Below are positions 35-23,944 of a DNA stretch of 64,000 nt, in pieces (the first letter of the stretch is position 1; every line of letters begins with the position of its first letter). Under the pieces are notes generated by a model that was given only the letters and a program-made list of their open reading frames with translations, had not been told where the DNA came from and did no database searches. Made by a program: the position numbers and the translations under genes. The stretch is from Temperatibacter marinus (GTDB lineage: Bacteria > Pseudomonadota > Alphaproteobacteria > Sphingomonadales > Kordiimonadaceae): NCBI RefSeq assembly GCF_031598375.1, contig NZ_CP123872.1, forward strand, positions 868,001 through 932,000, read 5' to 3'.

Positions 35-1006
35 TTATTCAACGTATACAGCCCCTAAAATTTCTTCCCCTTCTTCCCAATGAAGGACGCCAAACGTCGT
101 GTATTTTTCTTTCTGGCTTTCTAGGAATTGCCAAGCACATACCATGGTATAGTCATCATCCACAACAGTTTCTCGCGACCAAAGTTTAAAAGCTTCGCCG
201 AAAGAATGACGTATGGAATAGAGATAGCGTCCGTATGACATGCCGTTTCCGAACATCTCTGGTCCATGGAATTGGTGATGATTGCCGTTTCTGGTGCGCA
301 TGGCCGTCCACTTTCTATTCACCACGCCTTCAATCTCAATTGTTTGCTCACTATGGAGCAAATTGATAGGTTTATGATGGATCGTCACCTTATTTGTCCC
401 GATCAATTCTTGCTGATCATTATAAACTTCAAATTCTCCTCGGAAAACGCCCGCATTCTTCACAGGGTAATTGAAAGGTTTTTTACCGTCAGTTTTCTCT
501 TTCGCTAGGAAATCAATCACCTTTTGTTGAGTCTCAGGGTTAGTCTCATGATCCTGTGTCACCACATAAAGTCCATTGAAAACGCCAACCAAAGTGTCCC
601 CTTCAAATAGTTGAGAAGAGTAGACTTGCAGCCCAAGCTCTGGCACAACGTGATTGACGGTCCGTAGATCAACATTCCAGCCGGGTGAAAAATAACGACT
701 ATCAACTAACAAACCATAAGGGCGGCCTGTTCCGATAAAATCCGGTCCCGTGTAAATCCGGTCCTGATCACTATCGATCACACCAAAGTTGAACTTTGCG
801 CCAATCTCAAACCGATCATTCAACGGTCCCGTGGCATCAAATTTTGTTTCCATCCAATACGTGGTTCGACCGTCTTTAAATTCACTCGCTCTACTCACCT
901 TATTATAGCCTACATGAGTCCCATCTGCTTCAAAAAGCGAAGGCATTCCGTGCCATTCTCCTGTGATTGCCTGTTGCCAGTTACTTGGTTTTTTATCATC
1001 AGCCAT
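35..1006 (-). CDS. calycin-like (DUF3598-type) protein, third gene of RCCR-like operon
   Basis: This is a 323-residue protein with no signal peptide or membrane segment. It has repeated beta-rich stretches with Gly/Trp-spaced motifs such as ITGEWHG near the start, resembling calycin/DUF3598-like barrels. The same opening pattern (GTWHD, then an ALDG turn) occurs in the smaller protein at 4330-4923. I chose the start at 1006 because AAGGGAAC lies just upstream; a longer frame would run back into the preceding gene. It follows the esterase gene by 13 bp, in an operon led by the RCCR-like gene. Several bilin lyases (CpcS/CpcT types) have calycin folds, so tetrapyrrole binding or chaperoning is a reasonable guess. 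That role is inferred from fold and context; enzymatic activity cannot be judged. Confidence 0.62.
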   Translation of the reverse strand: MADDKKPSNWQQAITGEWHGMPSLFEADGTHVGYNKVSRASEFKDGRTTYWMETKFDATGPLNDRFEIGAKFNFGVIDSDQDRIYTGPDFIGTGRPYGLLVDSRYFSPGWNVDLRTVNHVVPELGLQVYSSQLFEGDTLVGVFNGLYVVTQDHETNPETQQKVIDFLAKEKTDGKKPFNYPVKNAGVFRGEFEVYNDQQELIGTNKVTIHHKPINLLHSEQTIEIEGVVNRKWTAMRTRNGNHHQFHGPEMFGNGMSYGRYLYSIRHSFGEAFKLWSRETVVDDDYTMVCAWQFLESQKEKYTTFGVLHWEEGEEILGAVYVE

Positions 1007-1019: not shown

Positions 1020-2006
1020 TTACTTGGTCTGCAACACAACCGATACTCGGCCTTTTGCACAGTCTTTAATTGTCTTTTCCTGGATGCCCTGGTGGCGAAT
1101 AAACATCCCCACAAGCGCTGCATAAAATTCTCTAAATGCATGTGAATCTATCGTTTCTTCCTGGTCAAGGAAGGGGCGGCCGGTTGTATCATCCTGAGGA
1201 TAGACACATGAAAAATGATTGGCGCCCTCGATAAAAACCAATGCACTCCCATTTCCTGCTTTCACGCCCTCAACAAATGTCCGCTCAATGCGCGCCGTGG
1301 GACTGTCGTCCTCAGCCTTACCATAGCGATGAGAGCTGGATGCAATCACACCGTCCTTTGTTCCCCCTGTCAGCAATACCGGAACATCATCACCGAGCGG
1401 TAAAACTGTATCCTCAGGCCATCCGAGCGCGACCGAGGCACCTGTATGAGCTGCATAGCTAAAAACACCTTTTATTGATGGAAACCACTGTCTATTAGCA
1501 TTCATCAAGGCTACTGTTCCGCCAGCGGAATGACCCCCGATGTAGAGAGATTCCATATCAATCAAACCTGCAAATTGACCTTCTTTATTTAAAGACTTTA
1601 ACTCTTCAAGAAGGGGGGCTATCGCTGGACAACTTGGACCTTTCCCGTGTCCTTCAGGCGAAAAACTCTCCATATCTAGGCCTGGCGTTAAGGAAACATA
1701 ACCCGGCATTTCTTCCGCAATCCAGCTATAGGTCACAACCAAATTACCCTCTTTTGCAAGGGCTTTTGCAAGCCACGCATATGATTCAGGGCCCACATTG
1801 ATCCCCGGCAAAAGAAGCACAACGGGCAAGGGTGCCTTCTCTTCATTCACAGGAATCATTCCTGTATTGCGCTCTAGGTCGCTATTTCCAAAAGTCGCAG
1901 GGTAATAGATCTTCGCGCTGATAGTATCATAAGGCGCTTCAGCTTCCGTCACATGAATAGCGCGGAAGAGAGCACGGACAGAAAAGGGCATGTCTTCAGT
2001 AGTCAT
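1020..2006 (-). CDS. alpha/beta-hydrolase, chlorophyllase/dienelactone-hydrolase-like esterase
   Basis: This 328-residue cytoplasmic alpha/beta-hydrolase has an oxyanion-type strand-turn PVVLLLPG (61-68), a nucleophile elbow G-H-S160-A-G, and a likely triad completed by D218 (TKDG) and H264 (ANHF). The layout, a short lid-free hydrolase with the GHSxGG elbow, is shared by plant chlorophyllases, PETase-like esterases and PAF-acetylhydrolases. It lies between the RCCR-like gene (9 bp upstream) and a calycin-like gene. In this setting it could remove phytol or the C13 carboxymethyl ester from a chlorophyll derivative. The fold and triad are visible in the sequence; the substrate is inferred from neighbours. 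A generic carboxylesterase is the main alternative. Confidence 0.72.
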   Translation of the reverse strand: MTTEDMPFSVRALFRAIHVTEAEAPYDTISAKIYYPATFGNSDLERNTGMIPVNEEKAPLPVVLLLPGINVGPESYAWLAKALAKEGNLVVTYSWIAEEMPGYVSLTPGLDMESFSPEGHGKGPSCPAIAPLLEELKSLNKEGQFAGLIDMESLYIGGHSAGGTVALMNANRQWFPSIKGVFSYAAHTGASVALGWPEDTVLPLGDDVPVLLTGGTKDGVIASSSHRYGKAEDDSPTARIERTFVEGVKAGNGSALVFIEGANHFSCVYPQDDTTGRPFLDQEETIDSHAFREFYAALVGMFIRHQGIQEKTIKDCAKGRVSVVLQTK

Positions 2007-2015: not shown

Positions 2016-2831
2016 CTATTCAAGACCAACTCGCGGTAAGGTGCGGTTGCCGCCCCACAATGTTTTCACCATGCGGTCAGCGGGCTCTTTGCCAAACATT
2101 TTCTCAGCCAATGCATTAGCCGGGTCTCGTTCACAAATTGTCATACGAATGGTCTCTTCCCGCTTCGAAATCGCCGCTCTCTCTTCTAAAGGTGTTTTTT
2201 CTGCGTCGCGCATCCATCCAAGCCAGCGATCTAAACGCTCGTGAGCAATGCCTCGGATTTTCTCAATAACGGCATCATCCACATCTGCACAATATCCGAC
2301 GGCTGTGGGTGTCATAGCGATGCGGGTATATAAATCATGAGAAATAAAGGGTTTAAATCTTTCGTCTGCCTGCAGCTCTAAATATTCTTTATTCACTTCC
2401 GTATAATATTTATCTGCATAAGAGGCATCATAAAGATAATCTCTACGGGGAAGATAATCCATATACATAAACAAATCTGGAAGTGTGCCCAGGGCAAAAC
2501 CGAAATTTGGCACATCATACTGAGCACCAGGGCTAATGGTGATATGCATATTGGTAAATGTTGATTCAGGGGAACCTATAAACGAATGAATAAACCAATC
2601 AATCTCAGGGCCCGCATAAGCATTCAAGCTGCCCTCGGTGCCACTGTCACCAAATTTTGTATAATCATCAAACTCATCAGAGCAAGGGTCTTTCGTCAAC
2701 TCAAATTGAGCGTCAATTTTTTCCCGCATTTCAGCCAGAATTGCCCAGAGCTGATTAAAGACAGAACGACGATTTTCATTAGGGCGTTCCTCAACTTGCT
2801 GAATAACAGACTTTAATACTTTTTCACCCAT
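2016..2831 (-). CDS. red chlorophyll catabolite reductase (RCCR)-like protein
   Basis: This 271-residue protein aligns by eye along most of its length with plant RCCR (ACD2), a member of the ferredoxin-dependent bilin reductase superfamily. The matching blocks are VPNF (107-110), LPRRDYL (127-133), the following D-x-S-Y-x-x-K-Y-Y segment, ISHDLYTR-x-x-x-TPTA (163-176) and MFGKE (245-249). In plants RCCR reduces the C20/C1 bond of red chlorophyll catabolite using ferredoxin. The Asp of a D236-P-x-N motif sits close to the catalytic Asp of plant RCCR, while the plant catalytic Glu position appears to be Ala113. The gene heads a three-gene operon divergent from the PaO-like Rieske gene, with a regulon operator between them. 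Family membership is well supported; the substrate is inferred. Confidence 0.82.
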   Translation of the reverse strand: MGEKVLKSVIQQVEERPNENRRSVFNQLWAILAEMREKIDAQFELTKDPCSDEFDDYTKFGDSGTEGSLNAYAGPEIDWFIHSFIGSPESTFTNMHITISPGAQYDVPNFGFALGTLPDLFMYMDYLPRRDYLYDASYADKYYTEVNKEYLELQADERFKPFISHDLYTRIAMTPTAVGYCADVDDAVIEKIRGIAHERLDRWLGWMRDAEKTPLEERAAISKREETIRMTICERDPANALAEKMFGKEPADRMVKTLWGGNRTLPRVGLE

Positions 2832-2925
2832 GATACCCTCTTCCTAATCTAATAAAGTCGAAACAACTTCCTTTTTCTCCGACAGTTTATACACAGAATT
2901 TATTGTAAATCAATTCAATTAAGCA

Positions 2926-2941
2926 TAATGATATATGTTTA
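2926..2941. promoter_or_regulatory. GntR-type operator, site 1
   Basis: The 16-bp sequence TAATGATATATGTTTA matches 13 of 16 bases of the palindrome TAATGATATATCATTA. It lies between the divergent RCCR-like and Rieske oxygenase genes. A TATATCAAAT half-site directly overlaps its right end, and a TTTTGATATG half-site starts at 2967. The binding protein is inferred to be the HutC-type regulator encoded at 30848-31627. Confidence 0.65.
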
Positions 2942-3097
2942 TATCAAATGTTGCGTTTTTTGTCCCTTTTGATATGTTGGAAGAGAGTATTAGGCCTTGA
3001 TGGGAGTCAACCCTGAGGAAGCTCATATAAGATAGAGTGACCTCAAATCATCATTTCAGAGCAAGGGGGAAACAAACCCTCAAATGGAGGCAAAAGT

Positions 3098-4279
3098 ATG
3101 TTGGTTAATCTTTGGTATGTGGCTGAATGGTCAAAAAATGTGAAGAATGACCCTGTAAAGGTCCAAATATTGGGGCAAAAATTAGTTCTTTTTAGAGATT
3201 CTGAAGGAAAAATTGCCTGCCTCGCTGACATTTGTCTTCATCGCGGCGGATCCCTCGGGAATGGGTGGTGCAAAGACGGAAACGTTGCTTGTCCTTATCA
3301 TGGCTGGGAATATAACACAGAAGGAGAATGCGTTCATATTCCCTCTGAAGGACCTGAGGCCAAAATTTCTAAACGATTCAAAGTAGACAGATATGATGCA
3401 GAAGAGCGCTATGGGATGATTTGGGTCTTCATGGGGGACTTGCCAGAAGAAGAACGCTTTCCAATTCCGCCCTTCCCTGAGTATGACCAGAAGGAGTATT
3501 GGCGCGAAGTTACAACAGAATATACATGGAAGGCAGAAGCCTCTCGGGTCGTTGAAAATGGCATTGATCTAGCGCATGCTTCCTTTGTCCACCCTACTTT
3601 TGGTTACCAAGACACAGCAGGGGATAACAGTATTGACCATGTAGAAATTAATGAGTGGTGGGGCACCTCAACCAATACAAATTACCCCCCTCAATTAAAA
3701 GGAGACTTGGGTTTTAGACGGTTCATTCGCAAGGATAAACAACCAACCCGTACCCATCCAACTTGGTATCTCCCGGGGATGATTGTGCGTATGCAAATTG
3801 ACCTTCGTGAAGGCTGGACCATCATTATGTTTGATGCCAATACACCCATTGATGAGCACACAACCAGAACCTTTGCTATTCAACTGCGCAGCTTCATGAA
3901 ATGGCCTATGTTTGACAAAGGGTCAAAGAAACGGCTAGAAAAAATCCTTCATGAAGACGCTGCCATCGTTGAAGAATCCCAGCCTTATTACTTACCTGAA
4001 ACACTGGCCAATGAATTGTCTGTTGGGGATGATAAATTTATGAATAGTTTCAGAAAAGCACGGCGTATATTGATCGAAGAAAAGGGCTGGCAGATCGACC
4101 TGAAAAAGCGAGATACTGAGAAAGGTCGGACCGTCATGACCATACCCTCCCCAGCGAGAAAGAAAGCAGAGGCGGGGGGAATCAAGTGGGTTTTTGAAAA
4201 AATGCCTACCGTAGGGCCTGTCTCCAACAAAAAATCAGAAAATAGAATGTCGCAGAACTCGTCAAATAACTCAGCGTGA
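3098..4279 (+). CDS. Rieske non-heme iron oxygenase, pheophorbide a oxygenase-like
   Basis: This 393-residue oxygenase has an N-terminal Rieske [2Fe-2S] domain with C46-x-H48 and C65-x2-H68. The catalytic domain carries the mononuclear iron motif N154-x2-D157-x2-H160-x4-H165. The family includes PaO, TIC55 and chlorophyllide a oxygenase from plants and many bacterial ring hydroxylases. Unlike plant PaO I see no C-terminal membrane anchor or CxxC pair, so it looks soluble. The start is set by GGAGG at 3085-3089. The gene stands alone and is divergent from the RCCR-like operon. In plants PaO and RCCR act consecutively to open pheophorbide a, so the pairing supports tetrapyrrole ring opening here. 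Other aromatic substrates remain possible. No dedicated reductase gene is nearby. Confidence 0.82.
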   Translation: MLVNLWYVAEWSKNVKNDPVKVQILGQKLVLFRDSEGKIACLADICLHRGGSLGNGWCKDGNVACPYHGWEYNTEGECVHIPSEGPEAKISKRFKVDRYDAEERYGMIWVFMGDLPEEERFPIPPFPEYDQKEYWREVTTEYTWKAEASRVVENGIDLAHASFVHPTFGYQDTAGDNSIDHVEINEWWGTSTNTNYPPQLKGDLGFRRFIRKDKQPTRTHPTWYLPGMIVRMQIDLREGWTIIMFDANTPIDEHTTRTFAIQLRSFMKWPMFDKGSKKRLEKILHEDAAIVEESQPYYLPETLANELSVGDDKFMNSFRKARRILIEEKGWQIDLKKRDTEKGRTVMTIPSPARKKAEAGGIKWVFEKMPTVGPVSNKKSENRMSQNSSNNSA

Positions 4280-4304
4280 GTATCATCTAGCACTACTGAT
4301 CAAG

Positions 4305-4331
4305 GAAAGCCGTCTACTGGCTTTCTTTTTT
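4305..4331. terminator. intrinsic terminator after Rieske gene
   Basis: GAAAGCC (4305-4311) and GGCTTTC (4319-4325) form a 7-bp stem with a 7-base loop, followed by a T run to about 4331. It lies between the convergent genes ending at 4279 and 4330, slightly overlapping the end of the latter. Confidence 0.8.
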
Positions 4332-4923
4332 ATGCGAGTTCTGACCACATTTGAGTGACGAAAGCTTTTTCGTGCACAGGACCGTCTGGCCCCCGTGGAT
4401 CAAGATCATGTCTTTTTTGGCAAGTGGGACTGAGGCGTGTTCCCTTCGCTGTCAGCGTACGAATTGCCTCTCCGTCCTTATACAATACTGTATGTCTCAG
4501 ACGTTCTCCTGGAGCAGTAAGCATGATAAAATCTGGCTCCATATATATATCGCAAGCTTTCTCAAGGCGGCGACTGTTAAACGTCAGAATTCCTGGTCCG
4601 CCTGACATGCCAATATTTTCATAGGCCCCTGGTCCGAGCTGATCAAAAACTAAAACACCCTCTTTTAAATATCCTGTAAAAGTCTTTGCTGTTGTTTCCC
4701 GACCTCTGATATGGACATTTGTCAGTGACATTTTATGTCCGTCAAAGTCTAAATATACTAGATTGTCAAAAGGACTAGGGCCTGGCGTTCCCGCCTTTGG
4801 ATCATCCGATAGAGGTGTGCCATCAAGAGCGTATGTTTCAACATGATCATGCCATGTGCCGCGCATCAACATTAAATTATAGCCAACGGAACCTATGGGA
4901 AAAGTAGGATATGCTTCAGTCAT
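4330..4923 (-). CDS. small calycin-like protein of unknown function
   Basis: This 197-residue soluble protein has no export signal. It opens with MLMRGTWHDHVETYALDG and alternates short beta strands with Gly/Asp turns, as in lipocalin/calycin barrels. A similar opening is seen in the protein at 35-1006, suggesting they are distant relatives. It is transcribed alone, divergently from the NYC1-like dehydrogenase at 5043, with a regulon operator between them. A role in binding a hydrophobic tetrapyrrole intermediate is my inference from the fold guess and regulon membership; no catalytic motif is recognisable. Confidence 0.6.
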   Translation of the reverse strand: MTEAYPTFPIGSVGYNLMLMRGTWHDHVETYALDGTPLSDDPKAGTPGPSPFDNLVYLDFDGHKMSLTNVHIRGRETTAKTFTGYLKEGVLVFDQLGPGAYENIGMSGGPGILTFNSRRLEKACDIYMEPDFIMLTAPGERLRHTVLYKDGEAIRTLTAKGTRLSPTCQKRHDLDPRGPDGPVHEKAFVTQMWSELA

Positions 4924-4969
4924 TTTGACAGGACCTCTCTATGGGGGTTGCAAAAGTCATCAAATTACT

Positions 4970-4985
4970 TAATGATATAACAATA
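4970..4985. promoter_or_regulatory. GntR-type operator, site 2
   Basis: TAATGATATAACAATA has an intact left arm and a degenerate right arm compared with TAATGATATATCATTA. A further right-arm half-site AATCATTA starts at 4986. It lies between the divergent genes at 4923 and 5043. Confidence 0.6.
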
Positions 4986-5042
4986 AATCATTATAGGTTG
5001 CCAGCCTTATTTTATTAGGGCGTCAATAAACTGGAGGAAACC

Positions 5043-5843
5043 ATGAAATCTGTCGTCATTACAGGAAGCACCAAAGGGATTGGTCGGGGTCTGGCTGAGA
5101 ATTTCTTAAAAAGAGGTTGCAAGGTTCTCATAAATGGAAGGCAAGCAGAAGATGTTGATGCCTTGGCAGCTTCTCTTTCAGAACGCTACGGCGCAGATCA
5201 TGTTGCCGGATGTCCAGGAGATATCACCAAAGCGAAGGATCTCCAAAAGCTATGGGATACATGCACAAAAACATTTGGGCAGGTAGATATTTGGATTAAC
5301 AATGCTGGCATGGGTATGCAACGCGGGCCTCTCTATGAGGCTTCTCCCAGTGCGATCAAAAAAATTGTTGATGTGAATGTAACTGGCATTCTCTTAGCGA
5401 ATGCTGTGGTTTCAAAACAGATGCTGGCTCAAGGCTACGGACAAATATGGAATATGGAGGGCTTTGGTAGTGGCGGTCAGATGCAACAAGGCATGACGGC
5501 TTACGGAGCAACCAAACGAGCTGTTAATTATGTAAACGGCGCTATGCAAAAAGATCTCAAAGATACTCAAATTCAAGTCTGTACGTTAAGCCCTGGAATC
5601 GTCGTGACCGAACTGCTGATGGGAGATTATGACTTAAAGTCTCCAGAATGGGAAAAAGCGAAGAAAATCTTCAATATTCTTGGGGATAAAGTAGAAACAG
5701 TGACTCCCTATTTGGTGGACGGCATTCTTAAAACAAAAAAATCCGGCGCGAAGGTGGCATGGCTTACGGGCGGAAAGGCTTTTGCACGCTTTATGACAGC
5801 TGCATTTAAGAAAAGAGATCTATTCTCTGATCAGGCATCATAG
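5043..5843 (+). CDS. short-chain dehydrogenase, NYC1/NOL chlorophyll(ide) b reductase-like
   Basis: This 266-residue SDR has the cofactor motif TGSTKGIG (7-14), NNAG within IWINNAG (83-89), and the active-site pair Y154-x3-K158. Three features match plant NYC1/NOL rather than generic SDRs: the IWINNAG strand, the block NMEGFGSGG (137-145) in place of the usual NISS, and SPGIVVTELL (183-192). NYC1/NOL reduce the C7 formyl group of chlorophyll b to hydroxymethyl. The gene follows an operator and ends at a strong terminator. A paralogue lies at 26255-27055 beside another RCCR-like gene, which strengthens a tetrapyrrole role. Substrate specificity is inferred; reduction of another ring carbonyl is possible. 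Confidence 0.78.
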   Translation: MKSVVITGSTKGIGRGLAENFLKRGCKVLINGRQAEDVDALAASLSERYGADHVAGCPGDITKAKDLQKLWDTCTKTFGQVDIWINNAGMGMQRGPLYEASPSAIKKIVDVNVTGILLANAVVSKQMLAQGYGQIWNMEGFGSGGQMQQGMTAYGATKRAVNYVNGAMQKDLKDTQIQVCTLSPGIVVTELLMGDYDLKSPEWEKAKKIFNILGDKVETVTPYLVDGILKTKKSGAKVAWLTGGKAFARFMTAAFKKRDLFSDQAS

Positions 5844-5903: not shown

Positions 5904-7211
5904 TTAACTATTCGTCATTTCAGGTATTTTGATTTTATCAACAAGCATTCTTGACCAGATCAACACGACAAGTGCGGCAAATCCGAAAAAGACGATAGGG
6001 CCAGAATTCATTACGTTAAATACAGCACCACCGACAACACTGGCAGCCAAAATCCCGACCGCACCAGCAAGGGTGAACACGCCGATCACTGACCCACGAT
6101 TTTCTTTGGGTGATTGTTCAGCAATTAATACTCCACTTGTTATAATACAGCCGACTTCAGCCATGCCAATCAACACTAACAATATCATCATAGGGACGCT
6201 GAAAGGGTCTGATACAAAAGCCGTGCATCCATAACCAACCACTCCCACGAGCAATGTAACTGAGAGTGCATTCACTCTATTCATTTTATCTGTCATAATA
6301 CCAAAAATGGGGGCGAACAACAGTGAAGCTGCATATGATATGACCACGACCTTGCCCCCTTTAGCTAAGGCATCTGCCGTTTCCATTCCTAAGACTTGAC
6401 TGCCATAAATCGCGGCCCATAACGGATAAAATGTACCAACGACTGCAAGGTTGCCCCGAGCTACAAAGCTTGCAGCATAGGCCAAAGCAATGCCTGGAGC
6501 TTTCGCCGCCTTCATACCGACGACAACCTGACTTAAAGACGTGACTTCTTCATGATCATGACTTTTGATGACGCCGCTTTTAACTGTAAAGCCAAGCAGA
6601 AAAACCAAGACGAGGACAATTGCCGCCATCGTCATATAGGTGCTTAAACTTGCTTCTGTTGCAATCATGCCCTTGCCTTCGTAAATTTGAGGCATCTTCA
6701 CGAGGACTGTCACTGCCATAGACGCGCCAAGGCCATTCATAAAGCCAACGAAGCCGGTTGCTTTTCCACGGCTATCGTCGCGAATATAATCCGCCATAAG
6801 CGTAATAATCATAGCTGAGGCAGCCGACAGACCAGCCGCAGCAATTAATCGTCCTAAAAGGGCTACCCAATAATCTTTGGTGAACGCGAATATGACCATA
6901 GAAAGCCATATTAAAATGAAGGAGACCACAGTCACTTTCTTTCGGCCAACCTTATCTGAAAGTGCTCCCCAAAAGCCAGCCGTCAAAATGATAACAATTT
7001 CGCCCCAAAATAATAGCTGACCACTGACAGCGCCTTGGTCATTCTTTGGAATATTAAGCACTTCATCTAACAAATAAGGCTGCACAGCAGGGATGAATGT
7101 CGCCAGCATGATGGTGCTAAAGCTCAACGCAAGTAGCGCAATCACATTGCCCTTCGAAACATTCTCATTCAGATTGAGTCCGAGAAATCGTTTTGTGTTA
7201 CTCTCTGTCAT
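5904..7211 (-). CDS. MFS transporter
   Basis: This 435-residue, 12-helix major facilitator protein has the loop 2-3 signature GALSDKVGRKKV and a second SDKMNR-type loop in the C-terminal half. It is the second gene of an operon with a membrane protein upstream (20-bp gap), divergent from the long catabolic operon and sharing its operator region. It probably imports a regulon substrate or exports an intermediate. The substrate cannot be read from sequence. The longer loop after helix 6 contains a His/Glu cluster (SHDHEE). Confidence 0.85.
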   Translation of the reverse strand: MTESNTKRFLGLNLNENVSKGNVIALLALSFSTIMLATFIPAVQPYLLDEVLNIPKNDQGAVSGQLLFWGEIVIILTAGFWGALSDKVGRKKVTVVSFILIWLSMVIFAFTKDYWVALLGRLIAAAGLSAASAMIITLMADYIRDDSRGKATGFVGFMNGLGASMAVTVLVKMPQIYEGKGMIATEASLSTYMTMAAIVLVLVFLLGFTVKSGVIKSHDHEEVTSLSQVVVGMKAAKAPGIALAYAASFVARGNLAVVGTFYPLWAAIYGSQVLGMETADALAKGGKVVVISYAASLLFAPIFGIMTDKMNRVNALSVTLLVGVVGYGCTAFVSDPFSVPMMILLVLIGMAEVGCIITSGVLIAEQSPKENRGSVIGVFTLAGAVGILAASVVGGAVFNVMNSGPIVFFGFAALVVLIWSRMLVDKIKIPEMTNS

Positions 7212-9760: not shown

Positions 9761-9775
9761 AGAATAGGATATATT

Positions 9776-10525
9776 ATGAGTCCAGTCTCTCTACCAAAAG
9801 CCTTATGGGATAACACCTTAAATCAGTTGATAGATCGCCTAAATTTATCAGAAATAACTGGAGATGACGGCGGTCATTATATGGATCTGATCAGTCAGCT
9901 GCCAATGGTACAGGGTGAAGTAGGTAACGTACGCCTCTTCAAAGGCGACGGAATCTATCAGCTTGTCACTTGCTCACTGGTTGTGCCCCCGATCCATCTT
10001 GATAGTCATATGCTTTTTGTTTTTAGCGACTCTGACTGTGCTGTCCCTCATTTCACTTTGGATTCAGTGAAGGCAGGAGAGCATAATGCCTTCCATCTAG
10101 ACCTGATCCCGCGTGTTGATCTCGGATCAAATTATACATATATGACTGAGGTTTTTGGCCCTCTAACAGACTTGTGTGAGGAAGCACGCGCCATTGATGG
10201 GATGGAGAAAGCGCATATTTCTCCTATCCAGTATGCGGTCATGTCACCGTGGATGTTGGTGCAACGTGCAAGCGACGAAGCCTTTGAGAAAATGGACAAA
10301 TATGTAGATGGATATCTCAATCACTGGTTATCGATTGTGGAAAAGGGAATTTCACCTGAAGCACTCGAGGGCCATTCTGCAGACGCTTTGATTGCAAGGG
10401 ATGCTCGAAACAAATCGATGATTTTCGATCCTGCTGTCGATCCTGTTTGGGGTCGCATTGAAGGCATGATTGGCACAGATGCCGTTTCAAAACTGCGCAG
10501 GTTGCTAAAAAGCACCAGCGCCTAA
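9776..10525 (+). CDS. divergent RCCR/bilin-reductase-like protein
   Basis: This 249-residue soluble protein follows the same block order as the RCCR-like paralogues: VPHF (90-93), LIPRVDL, then ISPIQYAV and a DPVWGRIEGMIG block in the MFGKE position. Similarity is weaker than for 2016-2831 and 25412-26221. At the position of the plant RCCR catalytic Glu it carries Asp96 (TLDS), where the other two have Ala and Val. It is second in the long operon, 15 bp after the nitrilase-like gene. It probably binds or reduces a linear tetrapyrrole. Membership of the ferredoxin-dependent bilin reductase superfamily is my visual judgement and needs a profile search. Confidence 0.65.
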   Translation: MSPVSLPKALWDNTLNQLIDRLNLSEITGDDGGHYMDLISQLPMVQGEVGNVRLFKGDGIYQLVTCSLVVPPIHLDSHMLFVFSDSDCAVPHFTLDSVKAGEHNAFHLDLIPRVDLGSNYTYMTEVFGPLTDLCEEARAIDGMEKAHISPIQYAVMSPWMLVQRASDEAFEKMDKYVDGYLNHWLSIVEKGISPEALEGHSADALIARDARNKSMIFDPAVDPVWGRIEGMIGTDAVSKLRRLLKSTSA

Positions 10526-10566: not shown

Positions 10567-11856
10567 ATGACAGAGAGAGCAGACACAAAATATACTGGCG
10601 AATTCTTCGTTGAAGGTATGACCGACGCTGAAAAGCAGAGAGCGGCAGCTGTCGACTCGGTCTTGCCCGCTCTGAAGGCAGCTGCCGCTGAAGTTGACCG
10701 CGAAGGAGCCTTTCACCGTCCTCATGTAAAAACGCTCAGTGATGCTGGTCTAATGGGATTAATCGTCCCTAAAAGTCATGGAGGGATGGGTGGCGGACTT
10801 CGTGATTTAGCAGCGGCGACCTATGCCCTTGGCACAGCCTGCCCTTCAACTGCACTTGCCTTCTTTTTCCATTGTAGTTCTGCATCGCGGGGACTGTTGG
10901 CCTTAGAGGCACTTGAAAATGGCTTTTTTGATGCTTCAGAAAAAGAGGCTGTTCAAGCTTTTGCGGATAAAGTGTTGAACACAATGGGTCATGAGAAAAA
11001 GTGGCTAGCCAATTTTGCCTCAGAAAGTGTGAAGTCTGAAAAGGCGGCAATTACCATCAGTACCAAAGCCAAAAAAATAGACGGTGGTTATCTCTTAAAC
11101 GGCGTTAAATCTTTCGGCTGTGCAACCGGTGTCGCTGATCAATATTTAGTAACCGCCTCCCTAGAAGGAAATGACACAGGGGCTGGACTTTGTACCTTCT
11201 TTATCGACCCAAAGGCCACAGGTGTATCAGAGCGTCAAAAGTGGGATGCCATTGGAATGCGCGGTACAGCAACACACGGTATCATCCTTGAAGATGTTAT
11301 TGTTTCAGATGAGAATGCTCTGGCAATCCCAGGTGCTTTTGTCAAATGCATGCAAATGAGTCGAGGAAGTTTTGTTGGAAACCAGTTAGCAGGCATTGCT
11401 GTCTATCTTGGTGCAGGTAAGGCAATTTATGATGCCTCTCTGCATAATCTAAAAACTTTTACTTTTGGTGATACAGGGAAACCAATCGGTCACGCCCCTT
11501 TTCAGCAAGAACTTATTGGGAAAATGATGGTCGAGCTTGAAACAGCGACCATTTGGTTGCGCCGTCAATTGGAATTAGAAGCCGCTGAAGTGCCTCTTTT
11601 GCCAAAACATGAGGTGGTGCAACGTTGGCGCCTTTGTAAAGGAGTTGTTGCTGAAAGTGCCTTCAAGCTTGCTACCTATGCCTTAAAGACCAGCGGGACA
11701 TCGGGCACAGGATTTTCTGCCCCTATGGCGCGCGGTCTTCGTGACATGGCTATGGCACTTGTCCAAGCCTTCCCTATTGAAAGAGGGCGTCTCATGGCAG
11801 CTCAAATGGAAATGGATGGGGCCGAACAGAGTCAATTTGGGGTCTCAAAAAAGTAA
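10567..11856 (+). CDS. acyl-CoA dehydrogenase-fold flavoprotein, possible monooxygenase
   Basis: This 429-residue protein has the acyl-CoA dehydrogenase fold: an N-terminal helical domain, a central beta domain with the flavin-facing GMRGTATHG loop, and a C-terminal helical domain ending in RGLRDMAMALVQAFP. The usual catalytic Glu and YEGT-type motif of true acyl-CoA dehydrogenases are not evident. The C-terminus resembles flavin-dependent group D hydroxylases and DszC-type enzymes. Either an oxygenase fed by a separate flavin reductase or a true dehydrogenase is possible. It is the third gene of the operon, 41 bp after the bilin-reductase-like gene and 4 bp before an aldehyde dehydrogenase gene. 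Confidence 0.78.
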   Translation: MTERADTKYTGEFFVEGMTDAEKQRAAAVDSVLPALKAAAAEVDREGAFHRPHVKTLSDAGLMGLIVPKSHGGMGGGLRDLAAATYALGTACPSTALAFFFHCSSASRGLLALEALENGFFDASEKEAVQAFADKVLNTMGHEKKWLANFASESVKSEKAAITISTKAKKIDGGYLLNGVKSFGCATGVADQYLVTASLEGNDTGAGLCTFFIDPKATGVSERQKWDAIGMRGTATHGIILEDVIVSDENALAIPGAFVKCMQMSRGSFVGNQLAGIAVYLGAGKAIYDASLHNLKTFTFGDTGKPIGHAPFQQELIGKMMVELETATIWLRRQLELEAAEVPLLPKHEVVQRWRLCKGVVAESAFKLATYALKTSGTSGTGFSAPMARGLRDMAMALVQAFPIERGRLMAAQMEMDGAEQSQFGVSKK

Positions 11857-11860
11857 GGAC

Positions 11861-13300
11861 ATGACGGTGCGAACATTTGGTCATATCATTGGAGGCGAAG
11901 AAATTGCTGCACAGAGCGGCAAGACATTTGACGTTTTATCTCCGTCAACGCAGGCTGTTATTGGTGTGTGTGCGGACGGGGCATCAGAAGACATAGATGC
12001 TGCCGTCTCTTCCGCGCGTGCTGGCTTTAAAATATGGTCAGATCTTGCGCCAAAAGACCGAGAAGCCTGCCTCTTAAAAGCAGCAGATCTGGTGGAAAAA
12101 GAAGGAGTGGAACGTTTCTTAAATACTCTTATGCATGAGAGTGGTTCTGTCCTTAATAAGGCACGCGGTGAAATTGCATATACAGTGGATCTCTTAAGAA
12201 CGGCTGCTGGTGAAGTCCGCCGTCTCTATGGAGAAACTTTTCCCAACGATAATCCAGACAGAATGTCGCTTGTCATTCGGGAACCGTTGGGGGTGGTTGC
12301 TGTGGTTTCGCCCTATAATGCCCCTTTAGCTTTGCTGGTTAAAATGGCCGCCTTTCCTCTCGCTGCAGGGAATAGCGTTGTGATTAAGCCTTCTGAAGAA
12401 ACGCCAATGATTGCTCTGGCTTTTGTCAGACTGCTCTTGGATGCAGGTTTGCCCAAAAATGCGGTCAACATTGTCACTGGCTTTGGTCTGGGAACAGGAA
12501 AACCACTTGTCGAGCACGAAGATATTGACGCTATTGCTCTCACTGGCTCAACGCAAACAGGTATTGCAGTTGGTGCAGCAGGCATGCAGAAAATGCGGCG
12601 GATGCAGCTCGAGCTTGGCGGTAAAAGCGCACTGATCATTTTAAAGGATAGCGACCCGCACAAAGCCGCAAAAATTGCTGCTCAAGGGATTTTCACCCAT
12701 GCGGGTCAAATCTGCATGGCCAACAGTCGTATCCTTGTTGAGCAAGAAATCCTCAAAGACTTTCTTGTTGCTTTTAAAGCCGAAGCCGAAAACTTACCTA
12801 TTGGCGACGTGGAAAGTGAAAAAAGTTTTTACGGCCCTTTAATAAATCAAGCCGCAGTCTCAAAAGTCCAAGCCCATGTTGACAGTGCCGTTGCAAAGGG
12901 AGCGACTTTATTAACAGGAGGCCAACTCTTAGAGGGTTTAGTCTATCAACCCACCATTCTTCTAGAAACACCAAGAAACTGTGATGCTTGGCGCGAAGAA
13001 AGTTTTGCACCTATGTGCAGTGTTATCGGAGTGAGCTCCTTAGATCATGCGATTGAAGAAGCTAATGATAGTCCTTTTGGATTAAGTGCTGCAGTTCTGA
13101 CTCAGAATATCAGTCGCGGGATGCGAGCGGCTAAAGAGATTAAAGCAGGCTCTGTGCATATTGGGATGCATGCATTTCAAAGCAATGCTCTTGCTCCCAT
13201 TGGTGGATTCGGTATGTCAGGCATTGGTAAATCTGGCGGACGCTATAGCACCGAAGAATTCACAGAGCAAAAGTGGATTAGTATCGAGGTAAATGAGTAA
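11861..13300 (+). CDS. aldehyde dehydrogenase family protein
   Basis: This 479-residue NAD(P)-dependent aldehyde dehydrogenase has SPYNAP in the Rossmann region, GSTQTG near the cofactor, the catalytic Glu in LELGGKSA and the nucleophile Cys in GQICMANSR. The start at 11861 lies four bases past the preceding stop, with TAAGGA as ribosome site; the longer frame overlaps the upstream gene and is unlikely. The family oxidises aldehydes to acids or acyl-CoA. Here the aldehyde is probably a fragment released during ring or side-chain cleavage. It overlaps the next gene by one base, so the two are translationally coupled. Confidence 0.9.
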   Translation: MTVRTFGHIIGGEEIAAQSGKTFDVLSPSTQAVIGVCADGASEDIDAAVSSARAGFKIWSDLAPKDREACLLKAADLVEKEGVERFLNTLMHESGSVLNKARGEIAYTVDLLRTAAGEVRRLYGETFPNDNPDRMSLVIREPLGVVAVVSPYNAPLALLVKMAAFPLAAGNSVVIKPSEETPMIALAFVRLLLDAGLPKNAVNIVTGFGLGTGKPLVEHEDIDAIALTGSTQTGIAVGAAGMQKMRRMQLELGGKSALIILKDSDPHKAAKIAAQGIFTHAGQICMANSRILVEQEILKDFLVAFKAEAENLPIGDVESEKSFYGPLINQAAVSKVQAHVDSAVAKGATLLTGGQLLEGLVYQPTILLETPRNCDAWREESFAPMCSVIGVSSLDHAIEEANDSPFGLSAAVLTQNISRGMRAAKEIKAGSVHIGMHAFQSNALAPIGGFGMSGIGKSGGRYSTEEFTEQKWISIEVNE

Positions 13301-13902
13301 TGGATTTAGAACGCAATGCCATGGATATGGGCAACATGCCTGCCCTTCTTTTGGTAGATATGATCAACGGCTTTACAAATTCAGCATGCTCATTGGGTAG
13401 TGATTGCCCGGACGTTGTTGCTGCCAACGCCGTCTTATTATCGGAATTCAGAAGATTAGGCTTGCCAATTTTCTACACGACTGTTGTCTTTCACAACGAT
13501 GATCAAGCTAAAGTTTTTCGTGGTCGTATAGATGCTCTCAATCAGCTCACTCCCGACAGTAATTGGGTAAAAGTTGACCCAAAACTTGCTATGCAAGAAG
13601 GGGAGGTCCTTATTGAAAAACAATGGGCAAGCTCTTTCCATCAAACTGACCTGCATGAACAGCTTCAAGCATGTGAGGTTGATAGCTTAGTAGTAACAGG
13701 CCTTACCACATCAGGCTGTGTCAGAGCCACAGTCGTGGACGGTCTTCAATATGATTACCGTGTCTTTGTTCCTAGGGAGGCCGTTGGAGACAGAAATCAA
13801 GACGCTCATCAAGCCAATCTTTTTGATATGCACGCAAAATATGCTGATGTTATCTCACTGGATGAAGCCATTAAACACATACGTCGTAGTCAGGGTAAAT
13901 AA
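13300..13902 (+). CDS. isochorismatase-family cysteine hydrolase, maleamate-amidase-like
   Basis: This 200-residue protein has the full isochorismatase-family amidase triad: D20 (LLVDMINGF), K107 (IEKQWAS) and C140 (TTSGCVRATVVD). Relatives include N-carbamoylsarcosine amidase, nicotinamidase and maleamate amidohydrolase NicF. It starts on the last base of the aldehyde dehydrogenase stop and is followed at once by a flavin monooxygenase gene. With maleate-isomerase-like genes just downstream, deamination of a substituted maleamate to a maleate is the most economical role. Activity of the family is established; this substrate is inferred. Confidence 0.82.
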   Translation: MDLERNAMDMGNMPALLLVDMINGFTNSACSLGSDCPDVVAANAVLLSEFRRLGLPIFYTTVVFHNDDQAKVFRGRIDALNQLTPDSNWVKVDPKLAMQEGEVLIEKQWASSFHQTDLHEQLQACEVDSLVVTGLTTSGCVRATVVDGLQYDYRVFVPREAVGDRNQDAHQANLFDMHAKYADVISLDEAIKHIRRSQGK

Positions 13903-13903: not shown

Positions 13904-15112
13904 ATGTCTCAAGAGTATCCCGTTATTATTGCCGGTGCAGGTCCTTCTGGATCTGTCCTCGCTTTATCTCTCGCTAAAGCGGGTGTCAAAGTTCTGCTTC
14001 TTGAAAAGGAAGCTCAGTTACCAATTGACCTTCGGGCTTCTACTTTCCATCCACCCTCTTTAGAGATGATCGGCGCCATGGATCAAGACATCGTTGATGC
14101 CATGATAGATAAAGGATTAGTGGCTGATCGCTATCAATATCGAGATCGAAAAACGGGCGACTGCGCCACTTTTAATATGGCTCAGCTTAAAGACGAAACC
14201 AGCTATCCGTTTCGCCTTCAGTTGGAACAATATGAGTTGACATACCTGATTGCTGAAAAACTCAAAGACTACCCCAATGTCGAGGTGCGCTACAATCATG
14301 AGGCGCTTCGCTTTGAGCAAACTCCTGAGACTGTCATCCTTTTTGCTAACACTCCGGAAGGAGAGGTCAGTCTTACAGGATCTTTTCTCATTGGCGCTGA
14401 AGGCGCGCGTTCGAACATCCGCAAGAGCTCTGGAATTGCTTTTGGCGGATTTACTTACGATGAAAAATTTCTTGTCGTCAGTACTTCTTTTGCCTTTGAA
14501 GATGTCTTTGATGATCTCTCTTATGTGAATTACGTAGCAGACCCTGACGAATGGTGTGTCATTTTACGCACTGAAAAAATTTGGCGGGTCCTCTTCCCTA
14601 CACAGGGTGACGAAGATCCGAATTACATTCTCTCAGATGAATTTATTCAAGAGAGACTGCACCATCTTCACCCAAGAGAAGGCGCCTATGACATTGGTCA
14701 TAGAACAATTTACAATGTGAACCAACGCGTGGCTGAAACTTATTATCAGGAACGGATGGTTCTCATTGGGGATGCCTGTCATATCAACAATCCTTTAGGG
14801 GGAATGGGGATGAACGGCGGGCTACATGATGCTTTTAATTTGGCTCCGCGTCTCATTAAAATTATCGAAGGAAGCGCGACTCATCAAAAGGAGTTCGCTC
14901 AGTATGATCGTCAACGTAGGGAATTGGCGGTTAAATTTGTTCAGGATCATACCATTGCAAATAAAAAACTTATGGAATCTACTGATCCTGATGTTCAAAC
15001 AAAACGACAAAAGTGGTTGATGGAAACGGCGGCAGACCCTGTTCAAGCCAAAGAATTTCTATTGGAAAGAGCCATGATTAACTGTGTGCGTGACAGTCTC
15101 AAGGTTGCTTGA
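13904..15112 (+). CDS. FAD-dependent monooxygenase, group A (PHBH-like)
   Basis: This 402-residue flavoprotein has an N-terminal dinucleotide motif G11-A-G13-P-S-G16 with a Glu about 20 residues later (LLLEKE), and the second FAD motif IGDACH around residue 289. These are typical of p-hydroxybenzoate-hydroxylase-type aromatic monooxygenases. I start it at 13904, one base past the isochorismatase gene; the longer reading is out-of-frame overlap with that gene. It may hydroxylate or oxidatively cleave a pyrrole or other aromatic intermediate using NAD(P)H and oxygen. The C-terminus (TKRQKWLMET onward) is family-like. Confidence 0.85.
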   Translation: MSQEYPVIIAGAGPSGSVLALSLAKAGVKVLLLEKEAQLPIDLRASTFHPPSLEMIGAMDQDIVDAMIDKGLVADRYQYRDRKTGDCATFNMAQLKDETSYPFRLQLEQYELTYLIAEKLKDYPNVEVRYNHEALRFEQTPETVILFANTPEGEVSLTGSFLIGAEGARSNIRKSSGIAFGGFTYDEKFLVVSTSFAFEDVFDDLSYVNYVADPDEWCVILRTEKIWRVLFPTQGDEDPNYILSDEFIQERLHHLHPREGAYDIGHRTIYNVNQRVAETYYQERMVLIGDACHINNPLGGMGMNGGLHDAFNLAPRLIKIIEGSATHQKEFAQYDRQRRELAVKFVQDHTIANKKLMESTDPDVQTKRQKWLMETAADPVQAKEFLLERAMINCVRDSLKVA

Positions 15113-15141
15113 TGACTGCAGTCCAAGGACTGGAGGGAAAA

Positions 15142-15921
15142 ATGATGAATAAATATGGGTATGGGACAGACTATTATGGCTACCGCAAGAAATTTGTTGT
15201 GCTCGTGCCAAGCACCAATACAGCTGTGGAAAGTGAATATCACTTGATGAAGCCTACAGGTGTTGCCCTTGCAACAAGAGCCTGTGTTATCCCCTCTATA
15301 AAAGTAACCAATGAAGAAGAATTCGTTGGGCTTGTAAAAGCCATTGGGGATGCCACTGAGCAAGGATTGAAAGATGCCCTGAGCTGTGAACCGGATCATG
15401 TTATTTTTGGCTATTCAGCAGAAACATTCTGGGACGGTAAAGAACGGTCAGACCGAGAATTTAAACGCTATAATGATATTGCCCAAGCTGTGGGCGGATG
15501 CAACATCACCTTTGGGGCTCAAGCCATTCAAGATGCTTTAGCCTGCTATCCTGGTGTAAAGAAAATTGCTGTCATTTCACCATACATGCCTGTCGGCGAT
15601 AATATGGTTATAAAGTTTTTAGAAGATATCGGCTATGAAGTCACTGCAATCAAGGGCCATTGTTCCCCGGGTGCCGTTGAAATTGCTCACGAGCCTTTTG
15701 GCAAAACCCGTGAATTGGTGCAAGCAGTGAATAGCGCTGACTGTGATTTGATATTACAGGCTGGAACGAATTTACACTTCGCAGAATTAGCAGGCTCCTT
15801 GGAAGCCGAACTGGGAAAACCAGTTCTCGCCATCAATACAATCACTTTTTGGCATGCATTAAGGACCAATGGCATCCCAGATCGCATTAAAGGGTTTGGG
15901 TCTCTATTATCTGAACATTAA
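15142..15921 (+). CDS. maleate isomerase/arylmalonate decarboxylase-like protein lacking catalytic cysteines
   Basis: This 259-residue member of the Asp/Glu racemase superfamily has LVPSTNTAVESE near the start and a mid-protein ISPYMPVGD, both typical of maleate cis-trans isomerase. Maleate isomerase uses two cysteines. Here the first position reads GYSAETFW (Ser/Ala) and the second reads QAGTNLHF (Gly), so both appear missing. GGAGGG at 15132-15137 places the start at ATG 15142 or 15145. A paralogue (17159-17935) lies two genes downstream. It may bind or isomerise a substituted maleate by another mechanism, or act as a decarboxylase-like or non-catalytic partner. Confidence 0.75.
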   Translation: MMNKYGYGTDYYGYRKKFVVLVPSTNTAVESEYHLMKPTGVALATRACVIPSIKVTNEEEFVGLVKAIGDATEQGLKDALSCEPDHVIFGYSAETFWDGKERSDREFKRYNDIAQAVGGCNITFGAQAIQDALACYPGVKKIAVISPYMPVGDNMVIKFLEDIGYEVTAIKGHCSPGAVEIAHEPFGKTRELVQAVNSADCDLILQAGTNLHFAELAGSLEAELGKPVLAINTITFWHALRTNGIPDRIKGFGSLLSEH

Positions 15922-15952: not shown

Positions 15953-17149
15953 ATGCGTATCATATTTTTTGTCATCTTAGTCGATTTGATTGGGTTTGGA
16001 ATCATGATTCCTCTCCTCCCAAATTTTGCTGATGAATTAAGTGGTAGCACAGGTTTAGCAACGTTGGTGGTTGGATTATATGCTGCAGGCATGTTGTTTA
16101 GCACGACCGTGATGGGCAGACTGAGTGACTTCTATGGGCGTCGTCCTGTTCTCTTACTGAGCATGGCCGGAGCTACGCTTGGGTATGTAGCTCTCTCCTT
16201 CTCAACTACAATTACCATGGTTGCAGCGGCACGTTTATTCAGTGGATTAATGGCTGGTAATATTTCAACAGCACAAGCCTATATAACTGACATTACAACG
16301 CCTGAAAACCGCGCCAAAGGTATGGGGATGATCGGGGCCGCTTTTGGATTAGGGTTCATTATCGGCCCCACGATTGGCTCTCTCATGTCAGGAGATGATT
16401 TCAAAGCGATAAGTCTGGCGACAGCAGGGCTAACATCGGCAGCACTCTCAGGGCTAGCTTTCTTAACGATCCTCTTTAAACTGCCCGAAAGTTTATCCAA
16501 AGAACAGCGGGACGCTCTGCGTCATGAGAAGAGAATTAGTCAATTTAAAGCTCTGGGCCAAGTGATGACACGCCCTGTCATTTTGGCAATGCTGGTCTCA
16601 ATTCTTATATATAATACTGCGGCAGGTATGGCTGAAACCATCCTACCTATCTGGACAAAAAAGATCGGGGTCATTCAATCGCCCGATGAATTATTTCACT
16701 ATCTTTTGCCTGCTGGGTTGATGCTCGCAATTGTGCAAGGGGGACTTGTTGGTCCCATACAAAAACGGATCGGTGAATATAAAATGGTTTTCACCGGCTT
16801 AAGTCTTTTTGCAGTGGCGCTTGTTGCTATGGGCTATTTCGGATCGCAGGGTTCAAAATTAGGGACGATTGTCTCTCTTTGTTTCCAATCATGTGGCGCA
16901 GGGTTATTTATGCCTGCTCTCCAAAGTCTCGTTTCCCAAAGAGCCGGGGATACCGAACGCGGCATGGTGATGGGACTCTATAGTTCATTTGGCATGTTGG
17001 GCCGTACTATAGGAACCATTGGAACAGGTTTTGTCATGAGTAACATTTATATTCACGCGCCCTATTATGGCGGTGCACTTTTAGCGATATTTCTCATTCT
17101 CATGATTAGTTTTTTAAATAATAGGATGGCAAATAAGCCAGCAGCTTAG
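15953..17149 (+). CDS. MFS transporter, TetA/drug-proton-antiporter type
   Basis: This 398-residue, 12-helix major facilitator protein has the loop motif GRLSDFYGRRPVL and a later PESLSKEQRDALRHE central loop, resembling the tetracycline-resistance type. It sits between the two maleate-isomerase-like genes in the long operon, 31 bp and 9 bp from its neighbours. It probably moves a dicarboxylate intermediate or a toxic pathway product. Direction and substrate are not visible from sequence. Confidence 0.87.
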   Translation: MRIIFFVILVDLIGFGIMIPLLPNFADELSGSTGLATLVVGLYAAGMLFSTTVMGRLSDFYGRRPVLLLSMAGATLGYVALSFSTTITMVAAARLFSGLMAGNISTAQAYITDITTPENRAKGMGMIGAAFGLGFIIGPTIGSLMSGDDFKAISLATAGLTSAALSGLAFLTILFKLPESLSKEQRDALRHEKRISQFKALGQVMTRPVILAMLVSILIYNTAAGMAETILPIWTKKIGVIQSPDELFHYLLPAGLMLAIVQGGLVGPIQKRIGEYKMVFTGLSLFAVALVAMGYFGSQGSKLGTIVSLCFQSCGAGLFMPALQSLVSQRAGDTERGMVMGLYSSFGMLGRTIGTIGTGFVMSNIYIHAPYYGGALLAIFLILMISFLNNRMANKPAA

Positions 17150-23838: not shown

Positions 23839-23898
23839 GGGTTCCATCCTTCTTCTATTCTTTCTATAGCAAGACATTTACCATTGCTCAATATGTAT

Positions 23899-23914: not shown

Positions 23915-23944
23915 ATATTATTGTATGGATGTGGGATAGAAAAA

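Follow-up and report, generated by a model that had tools for sequence, protein, structure and literature searches.

The first 31.6 kb of a 64,000-nucleotide stretch of Temperatibacter marinus DNA (contig NZ_CP123872.1, positions 868,001 to 932,000; hereafter the window) hold a gene cluster with proteins of the red chlorophyll catabolite reductase (RCCR) family, and we consider it probable that this cluster was acquired laterally and serves the catabolism of linear tetrapyrroles of the bilin type, derived from chlorophyll or heme. Three genes of the RCCR/bilin-reductase superfamily, here called RCCR-A, RCCR-B and protein C, lie inside 25 kb. To our knowledge, all characterised enzymes of this superfamily act on tetrapyrroles. 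The same cluster encodes degradative enzymes for which we know of no counterpart in the plant pathway, which argues for catabolism rather than leaf-like detoxification. A sequence-only reading of this DNA had recognised a 4-kb locus and described it as a plant-type set of chlorophyll breakdown enzymes. The cluster is larger than that, and protein C (9776-10525), duplicated nitrilase-type genes (8057-9760 and 28020-29663) and conservation of the neighbourhood across phyla come in addition. The proposal that the locus acts on chlorophyll- or bilin-type tetrapyrroles gains support from the three superfamily genes and their conserved surroundings. The plant-type enzyme set is not borne out: the Rieske oxygenase lacks a PaO domain, the alpha/beta hydrolase is nearest to polyethylene terephthalate (PET) hydrolase/cutinase, and neither RCCR-A nor RCCR-B has an acid at the column of Glu154 in Arabidopsis RCCR.

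Three proteins of one superfamily

The five open reading frames named in that reading (2016-2831, 25412-26221 and 26255-27055 on the minus strand, 3098-4279 and 5043-5843 on the plus strand) are intact with these coordinates, and its RCCR-like label for 2016-2831 and 25412-26221 was correct. They score 61.1 and 44.4 bits against PF06405 (gathering score 24.9; E 1.2e-16 and 1.5e-11). Among solved structures, 2016-2831 (RCCR-A) matches none but those of Arabidopsis RCCR at E ≤ 1e-5, and a profile of 42 bacterial RCCR homologues finds the same protein with E 1.2e-22. Residues R129, R170, R229 and D236 are identical in all 42 bacterial RCCR-A, RCCR-B and clade D proteins, and the corresponding columns of Arabidopsis RCCR are R, R, R and D. 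D236 aligns with Asp291 of Arabidopsis RCCR (numbering taken from the F218V structure entry), which, with Glu154, we take to have a functional role in the plant enzyme. RCCR-B belongs to a separate clade and is 70% identical to its Microbulbifer homologue. Further RCCR-family genes form clade D in four gammaproteobacteria (L075:12166-13008, L077:12120-12950, L091:12211-13032 and L096:12201-13043); they lie downstream of a major facilitator superfamily (MFS) gene, adjoin RCCR-B and share 25-28% identity with RCCR-A.

Protein C is a member of the RCCR/bilin-reductase superfamily by its predicted fold (pLDDT 95.9). The first 43 Foldseek matches are all RCCR, PebA, PebB, HY2, PcyA or PebS. Structural Z scores of the model are 23.2 with PebB, 22.8 with RCCR, 22.6 with HY2 and PebA, 20-22 with PcyA, 18-19 with PebS, 15.5 with PcyX and 11-16 with coproporphyrinogen oxidases. 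By sequence, protein C is below the PF05996 gathering score (18 bits vs 31) and other Pfam cut-offs; among its homologues, 11/27 match RCC_reductase and 3/27 Fe_bilin_red at E ≤ 0.01. D96 and D222 are kept in 27/27 homologues, which places an Asp at both the Glu154 and the Asp291 columns of Arabidopsis RCCR.

A neighbourhood conserved across phyla

When 84,980 species genomes were scanned with four RCCRs as queries, 104 relatives came up; 80 of these were retained with up to 10 kb per side. To these we added L010 and L011, and the open reading frames of all loci were compared by BLAST with the window proteins. L010 and L025 are one contig and were counted once, L046 is an Anaerolineae metagenome-assembled genome (MAG) and falls outside Nocardia, and the four clade D loci were counted separately. 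Contig ends truncate many of the loci, so that absences are not firm.

Six partners form the core of the 52 RCCR-A loci: a calycin-fold protein that we call w35 (48 loci), the Rieske oxygenase (47), protein C (47), an alpha/beta hydrolase (45), a nitrilase-type protein (42) and a short-chain dehydrogenase/reductase (SDR-A or SDR-B; 40). All six are present in 36/52. Outside Nocardia the counts in 28 loci are 24, 23, 23, 21, 18 and 16 in the same order, with all six in 12. As a control, 18 stretches (12.4 kb in one case) were taken from 11 genomes with RCCR loci. Under the thresholds used for the locus counts, none of the six families turned up in them; one stretch had aldehyde dehydrogenase and TonB receptor matches and the other 17 none. 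Conservation of the RCCR-A partners exceeds chance expectation. The neighbourhood is shared by Actinomycetota (Nocardia, Actinoplanes, Acidimicrobiales), Chloroflexota (Anaerolineae, Thermoflexus), a Myxococcota MAG and Gammaproteobacteria (Aestuariicella, Alkalimonas). Less general among the 52 loci are isomerase-like proteins (28), aldehyde dehydrogenases (25), the FAD-dependent hydroxylase (24, of which 20 in Nocardia), acyl-CoA-dehydrogenase-like flavoproteins (19), HMGL (9) and MFS genes of the two window types (3).

The neighbourhood of RCCR-B in some gammaproteobacteria includes epimerase-family, SDR-B, glyoxalase-like, isomerase-like and lyase genes, and in some also LeuCD and Nit-B, the second nitrilase-type protein of the window; homologues 52% identical to Nit-B adjoin RCCR-B in Thalassomonas (L075) and a gammaproteobacterial MAG (L076). 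Epimerase-family, lyase and glyoxalase-fold genes each occur in 4/4 clade D loci, the last also in 1/52 RCCR-A loci. Alkalimonas (L074) has the A and B modules together, like the window, and four other gammaproteobacteria combine RCCR-B with clade D.

No RCCR was found in 58 related genomes, so that lateral acquisition is likely. RCCR occurs in 3/385 genomes of a sample of the class, our genome included, and in 1/398 of a sample of the phylum, our genome alone; w35 occurs in 2/385 genomes of the class, the two with RCCR-A. In an RCCR tree of 67 rows (L010 and 21/24 Nocardia rows left out), the RCCR-A found in the window joins its Alkalimonas and Aestuariicella counterparts (support 100/100), and RCCR-B falls in a 26-row set (99/95) that is gammaproteobacterial except for RCCR-B of the window, L011 and a Rhodospirillales MAG. 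The simplest reading is lateral transfer, probably with gammaproteobacteria. The RCCR of L025/L010, from a 'Rhodospirillaceae' MAG (G408), nests among Acidimicrobiales, and this contig may be mis-binned. Plasmid carriage found no support, with no tblastn match among 72,556 plasmid records, and composition is uninformative as a sign of transfer (G+C 45.1% vs 43.5-44.9% nearby).

Gene content and a putative route

The genes of the cluster are as follows.

35..1006, minus strand: w35, protein with a predicted tandem calycin fold; 323 aa when read from the ATG at 1006
1020..2006, minus: alpha/beta hydrolase (GHSAGG); Abhydrolase_5 4e-07
2016..2831, minus: RCCR-A, red chlorophyll catabolite reductase family; PF06405
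3098..4279, plus: Rieske non-heme iron oxygenase, VanA type; PF00355 1.9e-23, VanA_C PF19112 2.8e-21
4330..4923, minus: small conserved protein; no Pfam match, homologues in other RCCR loci
5043..5843, plus: SDR-A oxidoreductase; PF00106 1.8e-41
5904..7211, minus: MFS transporter; PF07690 7.2e-32, 45% homologue in locus L019
8057..9760, plus: Nit-A, tandem nitrilase-superfamily amidohydrolase; PF00795 4.8e-39
9776..10525, plus: protein C, third bilin-reductase-fold protein by predicted fold
10567..11856, plus: acyl-CoA-dehydrogenase-fold flavoprotein; PF02771/PF08028
11861..13300, plus: putative aldehyde dehydrogenase, assigned by its identity to the one at 21476..22939
13300..13902, plus: isochorismatase-fold amidase (half-amide/maleamate type); PDB matches
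13904..15112, plus: FAD-dependent hydroxylase (MhpA/PHBH class); NCBIfam FAD monooxygenases, best 2.4e-54, below cut-offs
15109..15921, plus: member of the maleate isomerase/arylmalonate decarboxylase superfamily; its family profile matches PDB structures at 3.6e-18, first catalytic cysteine missing
15953..17149, plus: MFS transporter; Tet-type MFS NCBIfam 5.8e-51, far under cut-off
17159..17935, plus: second maleate isomerase-superfamily protein
18935..20356, plus: LeuC-type hydro-lyase large subunit; NF004016 1.3e-223 and TIGR00170 1.2e-211, both over cut-offs
20356..20991, plus: LeuD-type hydro-lyase small subunit; TIGR00171 4e-70, over cut-off
21476..22939, minus: aldehyde dehydrogenase; NCBIfam aldehyde dehydrogenases, best 7.4e-84
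22969..23877, minus: isocitrate lyase/PEP mutase superfamily C-C lyase (methylisocitrate/dimethylmalate-lyase like); TIGR02317 prpB 2.7e-77, under the equivalog cut-off
23921..24661, plus: SDR oxidoreductase; PF00106 3.6e-51
25412..26221, minus: RCCR-B, second RCCR-family protein; PF06405
26255..27055, minus: SDR-B; adjoins RCCR-B in gammaproteobacteria
27065..27931, minus: NAD-dependent epimerase/dehydratase-family protein; PF01370 2.9e-16, most frequent RCCR-B partner
28020..29663, plus: Nit-B, second tandem nitrilase-superfamily protein; PF00795 5e-39
29660..30115, plus: glyoxalase-fold protein; PF13669 5.9e-13
30848..31627, minus: GntR/UTRA protein, candidate regulator of the B module; PF00392 1.8e-17, PF07702 2.3e-18, 41% homologue in locus L075

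Several genes come in pairs: the two RCCRs share 36% identity, SDR-A and SDR-B 41%, the tandem nitrilase-type proteins 43%, the maleate-isomerase-superfamily proteins 37% and the aldehyde dehydrogenases 30% (29.9%). Genes from 8057 to 21444 form a single-strand run with intergenic gaps of at most 41 bases, and w35, the hydrolase and RCCR-A are spaced by 13 and then 9 bases. The small protein at 4330..4923 has homologues in RCCR loci of Aestuariicella, Alkalimonas, Thalassotalea, Rheinheimera and Paraglaciecola (64-71%) and of a Deltaproteobacteria MAG (51%).

The sequence-only reading had taken 3098-4279 for a PaO-type Rieske oxygenase. It is a Rieske oxygenase, and we rejected PaO membership: PF08417 is matched by 0/22 homologues (E ≤ 1) and VanA_C by 21/22. 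C46, H48, C65, H68 and D157 are invariant and H160 and H165 are kept in at least 90% of the 22 homologues, giving the ligands of the Rieske cluster and of the mononuclear iron that Rieske oxygenases have in general. One study describes bacterial PaO-like sequences as generally without the PaO motif and reports RCCR homologues in symbiotic cyanobacteria (PMC2716323). In four gammaproteobacteria the locus includes a fusion of rubredoxin with rubredoxin reductase, or a homologue of that fusion, as a possible electron donor. The proteins labelled NYC1/NOL-like, 5043-5843 and 26255-27055, are SDRs, with S143, Y154 and K158, a general SDR feature, invariant in 17/17; the 25 best NCBIfam matches listed are other SDR families, and the NYC1/NOL label is putative. 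For the alpha/beta hydrolase at 1020-2006, a profile of 21 homologues has PET-hydrolase/cutinase-type structures as its nearest (most of the best 60 of 98 matches), and the match to PF12740, a PETase family formerly named for chlorophyllase, is weak and under the cut-off (E 0.031). Identity as a chlorophyllase is unsupported, and the protein is a possible ester hydrolase acting on a side chain.

The predicted model of w35 (pLDDT 93.2) has a tandem calycin fold nearest to chloroplast BFA1 (5yvf, Z 19.9) and a cyanobacterial DUF3598 protein (2o62, Z 19.7), and its halves resemble nitrobindin (Z 13.7) and the phycobiliprotein lyase CpeS (Z 10.9). Searches gave no Pfam match at E ≤ 0.1 and no NCBIfam match at E ≤ 0.01. 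A role in binding or handling tetrapyrroles is possible and would fit this modelled fold.

The first half of Nit-A retains E53, K125 and C158, presumably the nitrilase triad, and the isochorismatase-fold protein at 13300-13902 keeps D20, K107 and C140, which we likewise take to be its triad. The latter matches N-carbamoylsarcosine amidohydrolase (7.5e-40) and 3ot4/3uao (5.9e-29) in the PDB. The LeuCD-type pair (18935-20991) passes the LeuC and LeuD family cut-offs for 3-isopropylmalate dehydratase, and its substrate is putative. The C-C lyase at 22969-23877 matches 1o5q (8.6e-54) and 2,3-dimethylmalate lyase (3fa3, 9.4e-47), belongs to the superfamily while scoring under the prpB equivalog cut-off, and carries KRCGH in conserved columns; we take this to resemble the KKCGH-like signature of methylisocitrate and dimethylmalate lyases. 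The canonical maleate isomerase identity of 15109 and 17159 is unsupported, as the first catalytic cysteine is missing; at the second cysteine column the profile places an invariant Gly, and a Cys stands one position earlier in 4/9 proteins, including 17159, with none in 15109.

How might these enzymes work together? Gene content, predicted folds, conservation and patchy distribution come directly from the analysis, and from these the substrate is inferred: probably a linear tetrapyrrole, or else a macrocycle whose ring the Rieske enzyme opens. The three reductase-fold proteins RCCR-A, RCCR-B and C would reduce the conjugated pigment or dipyrrole fragments, and the Rieske and flavin monooxygenases would cleave or hydroxylate the chain. 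Tentatively and speculatively, ring units could then leave as lactams or maleimides and enter a lower route of amidases, LeuCD and lyase. The nitrilase-type and isochorismatase-type amidases would open lactam, imide and half-amide groups with release of ammonia; the LeuCD-type hydratase would hydrate methyl-substituted maleates, as expected from methyl-ethyl-maleimide or hematinic acid ring units; and the methylisocitrate/dimethylmalate-lyase-type enzyme, if it works like 2,3-dimethylmalate lyase, would release pyruvate together with a short acid, expected to be butyrate or glutarate. The order of these steps is speculative. Maleimides and hematinic acid are oxidative products of chlorophyll and heme, and in leaf samples hematinic acid was found and maleimides were not, according to PMC7318184.

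Related systems and competing explanations

The cluster resembles the plant PaO/phyllobilin pathway (PaO, RCCR, NYC1/NOL) in that an RCCR-family reductase adjoins a Rieske oxygenase and an SDR. It differs in the Rieske and RCCR features given above and in its added amidases, hydratase and lyase, whereas breakdown in plants stops at phyllobilins. Ferredoxin-dependent bilin reductases (PcyA, PebA, PebB, HY2, PebS) share the fold of protein C (Z 18-23), but identities in the structural alignments are 11-16% and sequence scores stay below Pfam gathering. In Rockwell et al. 2023 (PMC10151467), the pre-PcyA clusters of heterotrophs typically hold genes for heme oxygenase, V4R, Fe-S and bilin-binding globin proteins, with RCCRs as the outgroup. 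There, too, non-photosynthetic bacteria keep genes of the bilin-reductase superfamily in conserved clusters, and these are the nearest described bilin clusters found; their gene content is different, in that the window cluster looks degradative and its genome lacks a PF01126 (HmuO-type) heme oxygenase.

Maleamate/dimethylmalate-type lower pathways occur in bacterial nicotinate catabolism. The window shares with these an isochorismatase-type amidase, a LeuCD-type hydratase and a dimethylmalate/methylisocitrate-lyase-type enzyme; in contrast, no extradiol dioxygenase was found among the scanned genes of its first 32 kb, and it has isomerase-like proteins in which the first catalytic cysteine is missing. 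Among the open-access PMC matches listed (subscription journals and preprints were outside the scope), we found no described bacterial cluster of such content and no described genes for bacterial tetrapyrrole dismantling. There is a fair chance that RCCR/bilin-reductase-superfamily enzymes in this degradative setting represent a wholly new pathway. It is plausible, at somewhat short of even confidence, that this is the first recognised bacterial pathway for mineralising tetrapyrroles, in which three bilin-reductase-fold enzymes and oxygenases break linear tetrapyrroles from chlorophyll or heme into ring units, amidases, a hydratase and a C-C lyase turn these into pyruvate and short acids, and whose genes have spread between phyla laterally.

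So, could the cluster be doing something else? A bacterial version of the plant pathway, in which chlorophyll is processed by chlorophyll b reductase, PaO and RCCR, is very improbable: RCCR family membership and the conserved Rieske and SDR neighbours would suit it, but no Rieske homologue matches the PaO family, the hydrolase has no clear chlorophyllase match and the Glu154 column is unconserved. We also regard as improbable a role in transforming or detoxifying photosensitising tetrapyrroles, like that of RCCR in plants, with the nearby catabolic genes serving other substrates. That would fit RCCR-B, which is partner-poor in many gammaproteobacterial MAGs and in Nocardioides, and the absence of LeuCD, lyase and isochorismatase from the core. 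Against it, the RCCR-A core includes nitrilase-type and Rieske proteins, and the gene run from 8057 to 21444 is tightly spaced. An unlikely alternative is degradation of another N-heterocycle or amide (pyridine, imide or lactam type), with RCCR-fold proteins recruited to a non-tetrapyrrole conjugated ring. A nitrilase, an isochorismatase-type amidase, an FAD hydroxylase, a Rieske oxygenase and a maleate-type lower route would also suit other N-heterocycle pathways. Three paralogues of what we take to be a tetrapyrrole-enzyme superfamily would be unlikely for a small heterocycle, and protein C keeps an Asp at both columns in all its homologues.

Several observations weigh against tetrapyrrole catabolism, and some of them favour the N-heterocycle alternative. 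An acid at the Glu154 column is found in 0/42 RCCR-A, RCCR-B and clade D proteins (A 24, V 10, I 7, T 1), so they may catalyse a reaction other than RCCR's. The chloroplast Ycf2-FtsHi motor subunit has Z 20.0 with protein C; the bilin-reductase fold is therefore not restricted to tetrapyrrole enzymes. VanA-type Rieske enzymes form a family with many unrelated substrates, and the isomerase-like proteins have no Cys in the GxSAETF stretch, the place of the first catalytic cysteine, in 9/9. Three genomes of the class that give no RCCR match have Nit-A homologues of 42-48% identity. In two class members (L128 and L130; G216 and G313), Nit-A homologues (46 and 42%) stand with a 36% FAD monooxygenase, a w31895-like gene and an SDR, again without RCCR; these sets possibly serve a related pathway for another nitrogen compound, and their co-occurrence means that part of the cluster may be a broader nitrogen-compound toolkit. 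An imidase-type module left of the window is present in relatives without RCCR. Outside Nocardia, isomerase-like, aldehyde dehydrogenase and FAD hydroxylase genes each reach 4/28 RCCR-A loci and the acyl-CoA-dehydrogenase-like gene 5/28; over all 52 loci the lyase (8), LeuC (2) and isochorismatase (1) are not core. As for RCCR-B, 25/30 loci show neither A nor D and most are partner-poor, the 25 holding epimerase-family genes in 11, aldehyde dehydrogenase in 9 and any other in at most 3 (glyoxalase-fold 3). Lastly, 6/14 cluster genomes encode a PF01126 heme oxygenase. The other 8/14, our genome included, have none in a search for the PF01126 type alone, so that a bilin made in the cell by such an enzyme is not the general substrate; within a tetrapyrrole-degrading role, this points to a pigment from outside the cell, or to another enzyme as the one that opens the ring.

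If the cluster does degrade tetrapyrroles, pigments derived from chlorophyll or heme may be a food source for the bacteria that carry it, and it would supply marker genes for pigment turnover and bring heterotrophs into the evolutionary history of RCCR and bilin reductases. About 10^12 kg of chlorophyll are made and degraded each year, as given in PMC7318184. RCCR-A occurs in cultured genera including Aestuariicella, Actinoplanes and Nocardia, and RCCR-B in Microbulbifer, Paraglaciecola and Rheinheimera, which makes the question testable.

RCCR-B has almost no partners in gammaproteobacterial MAGs and single cells such as L084, L087, L090, L093 and L098, and it may have a role of its own in such genomes. 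Just left of the window, a flavin reductase gene (PF01613; L012:9537-10010, minus strand) adjoins w35, as do homologues of 58% (L019) and 51% (L074) identity; the flavoprotein at 10567..11856 is a possible two-component monooxygenase with this reductase as a possible partner.

Further left, G000:C1:862869-867515 (L014:14869-19515) encodes a second isochorismatase, two PuuE/imidase-like proteins (PuuE match 1.5e-29) and a second LeuCD. Cyclic imidases relate to PuuE, as PMC9304392 indicates. Homologues of the first imidase-like gene with 68-86% identity are present in 11/58 relatives, all without RCCR; an isochorismatase adjoins the gene in all six of these relatives that were compared, and no RCCR locus has it at 100 bits or more (one in L072 reaches 98 bits and 27%). 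We dropped this module (G000, 858-868 kb) as a part of the pathway, since it is kept in relatives that lack RCCR and its first imidase-like gene reaches that score in no RCCR locus; it is probably a separate pathway of the cyclic-imide type. To the right, in G000:C1:932172-938205 (L015), 3/4 consecutive genes start with GGGxAGWM, which we take to be like the start of flavin-dependent tryptophan-halogenase-type enzymes.

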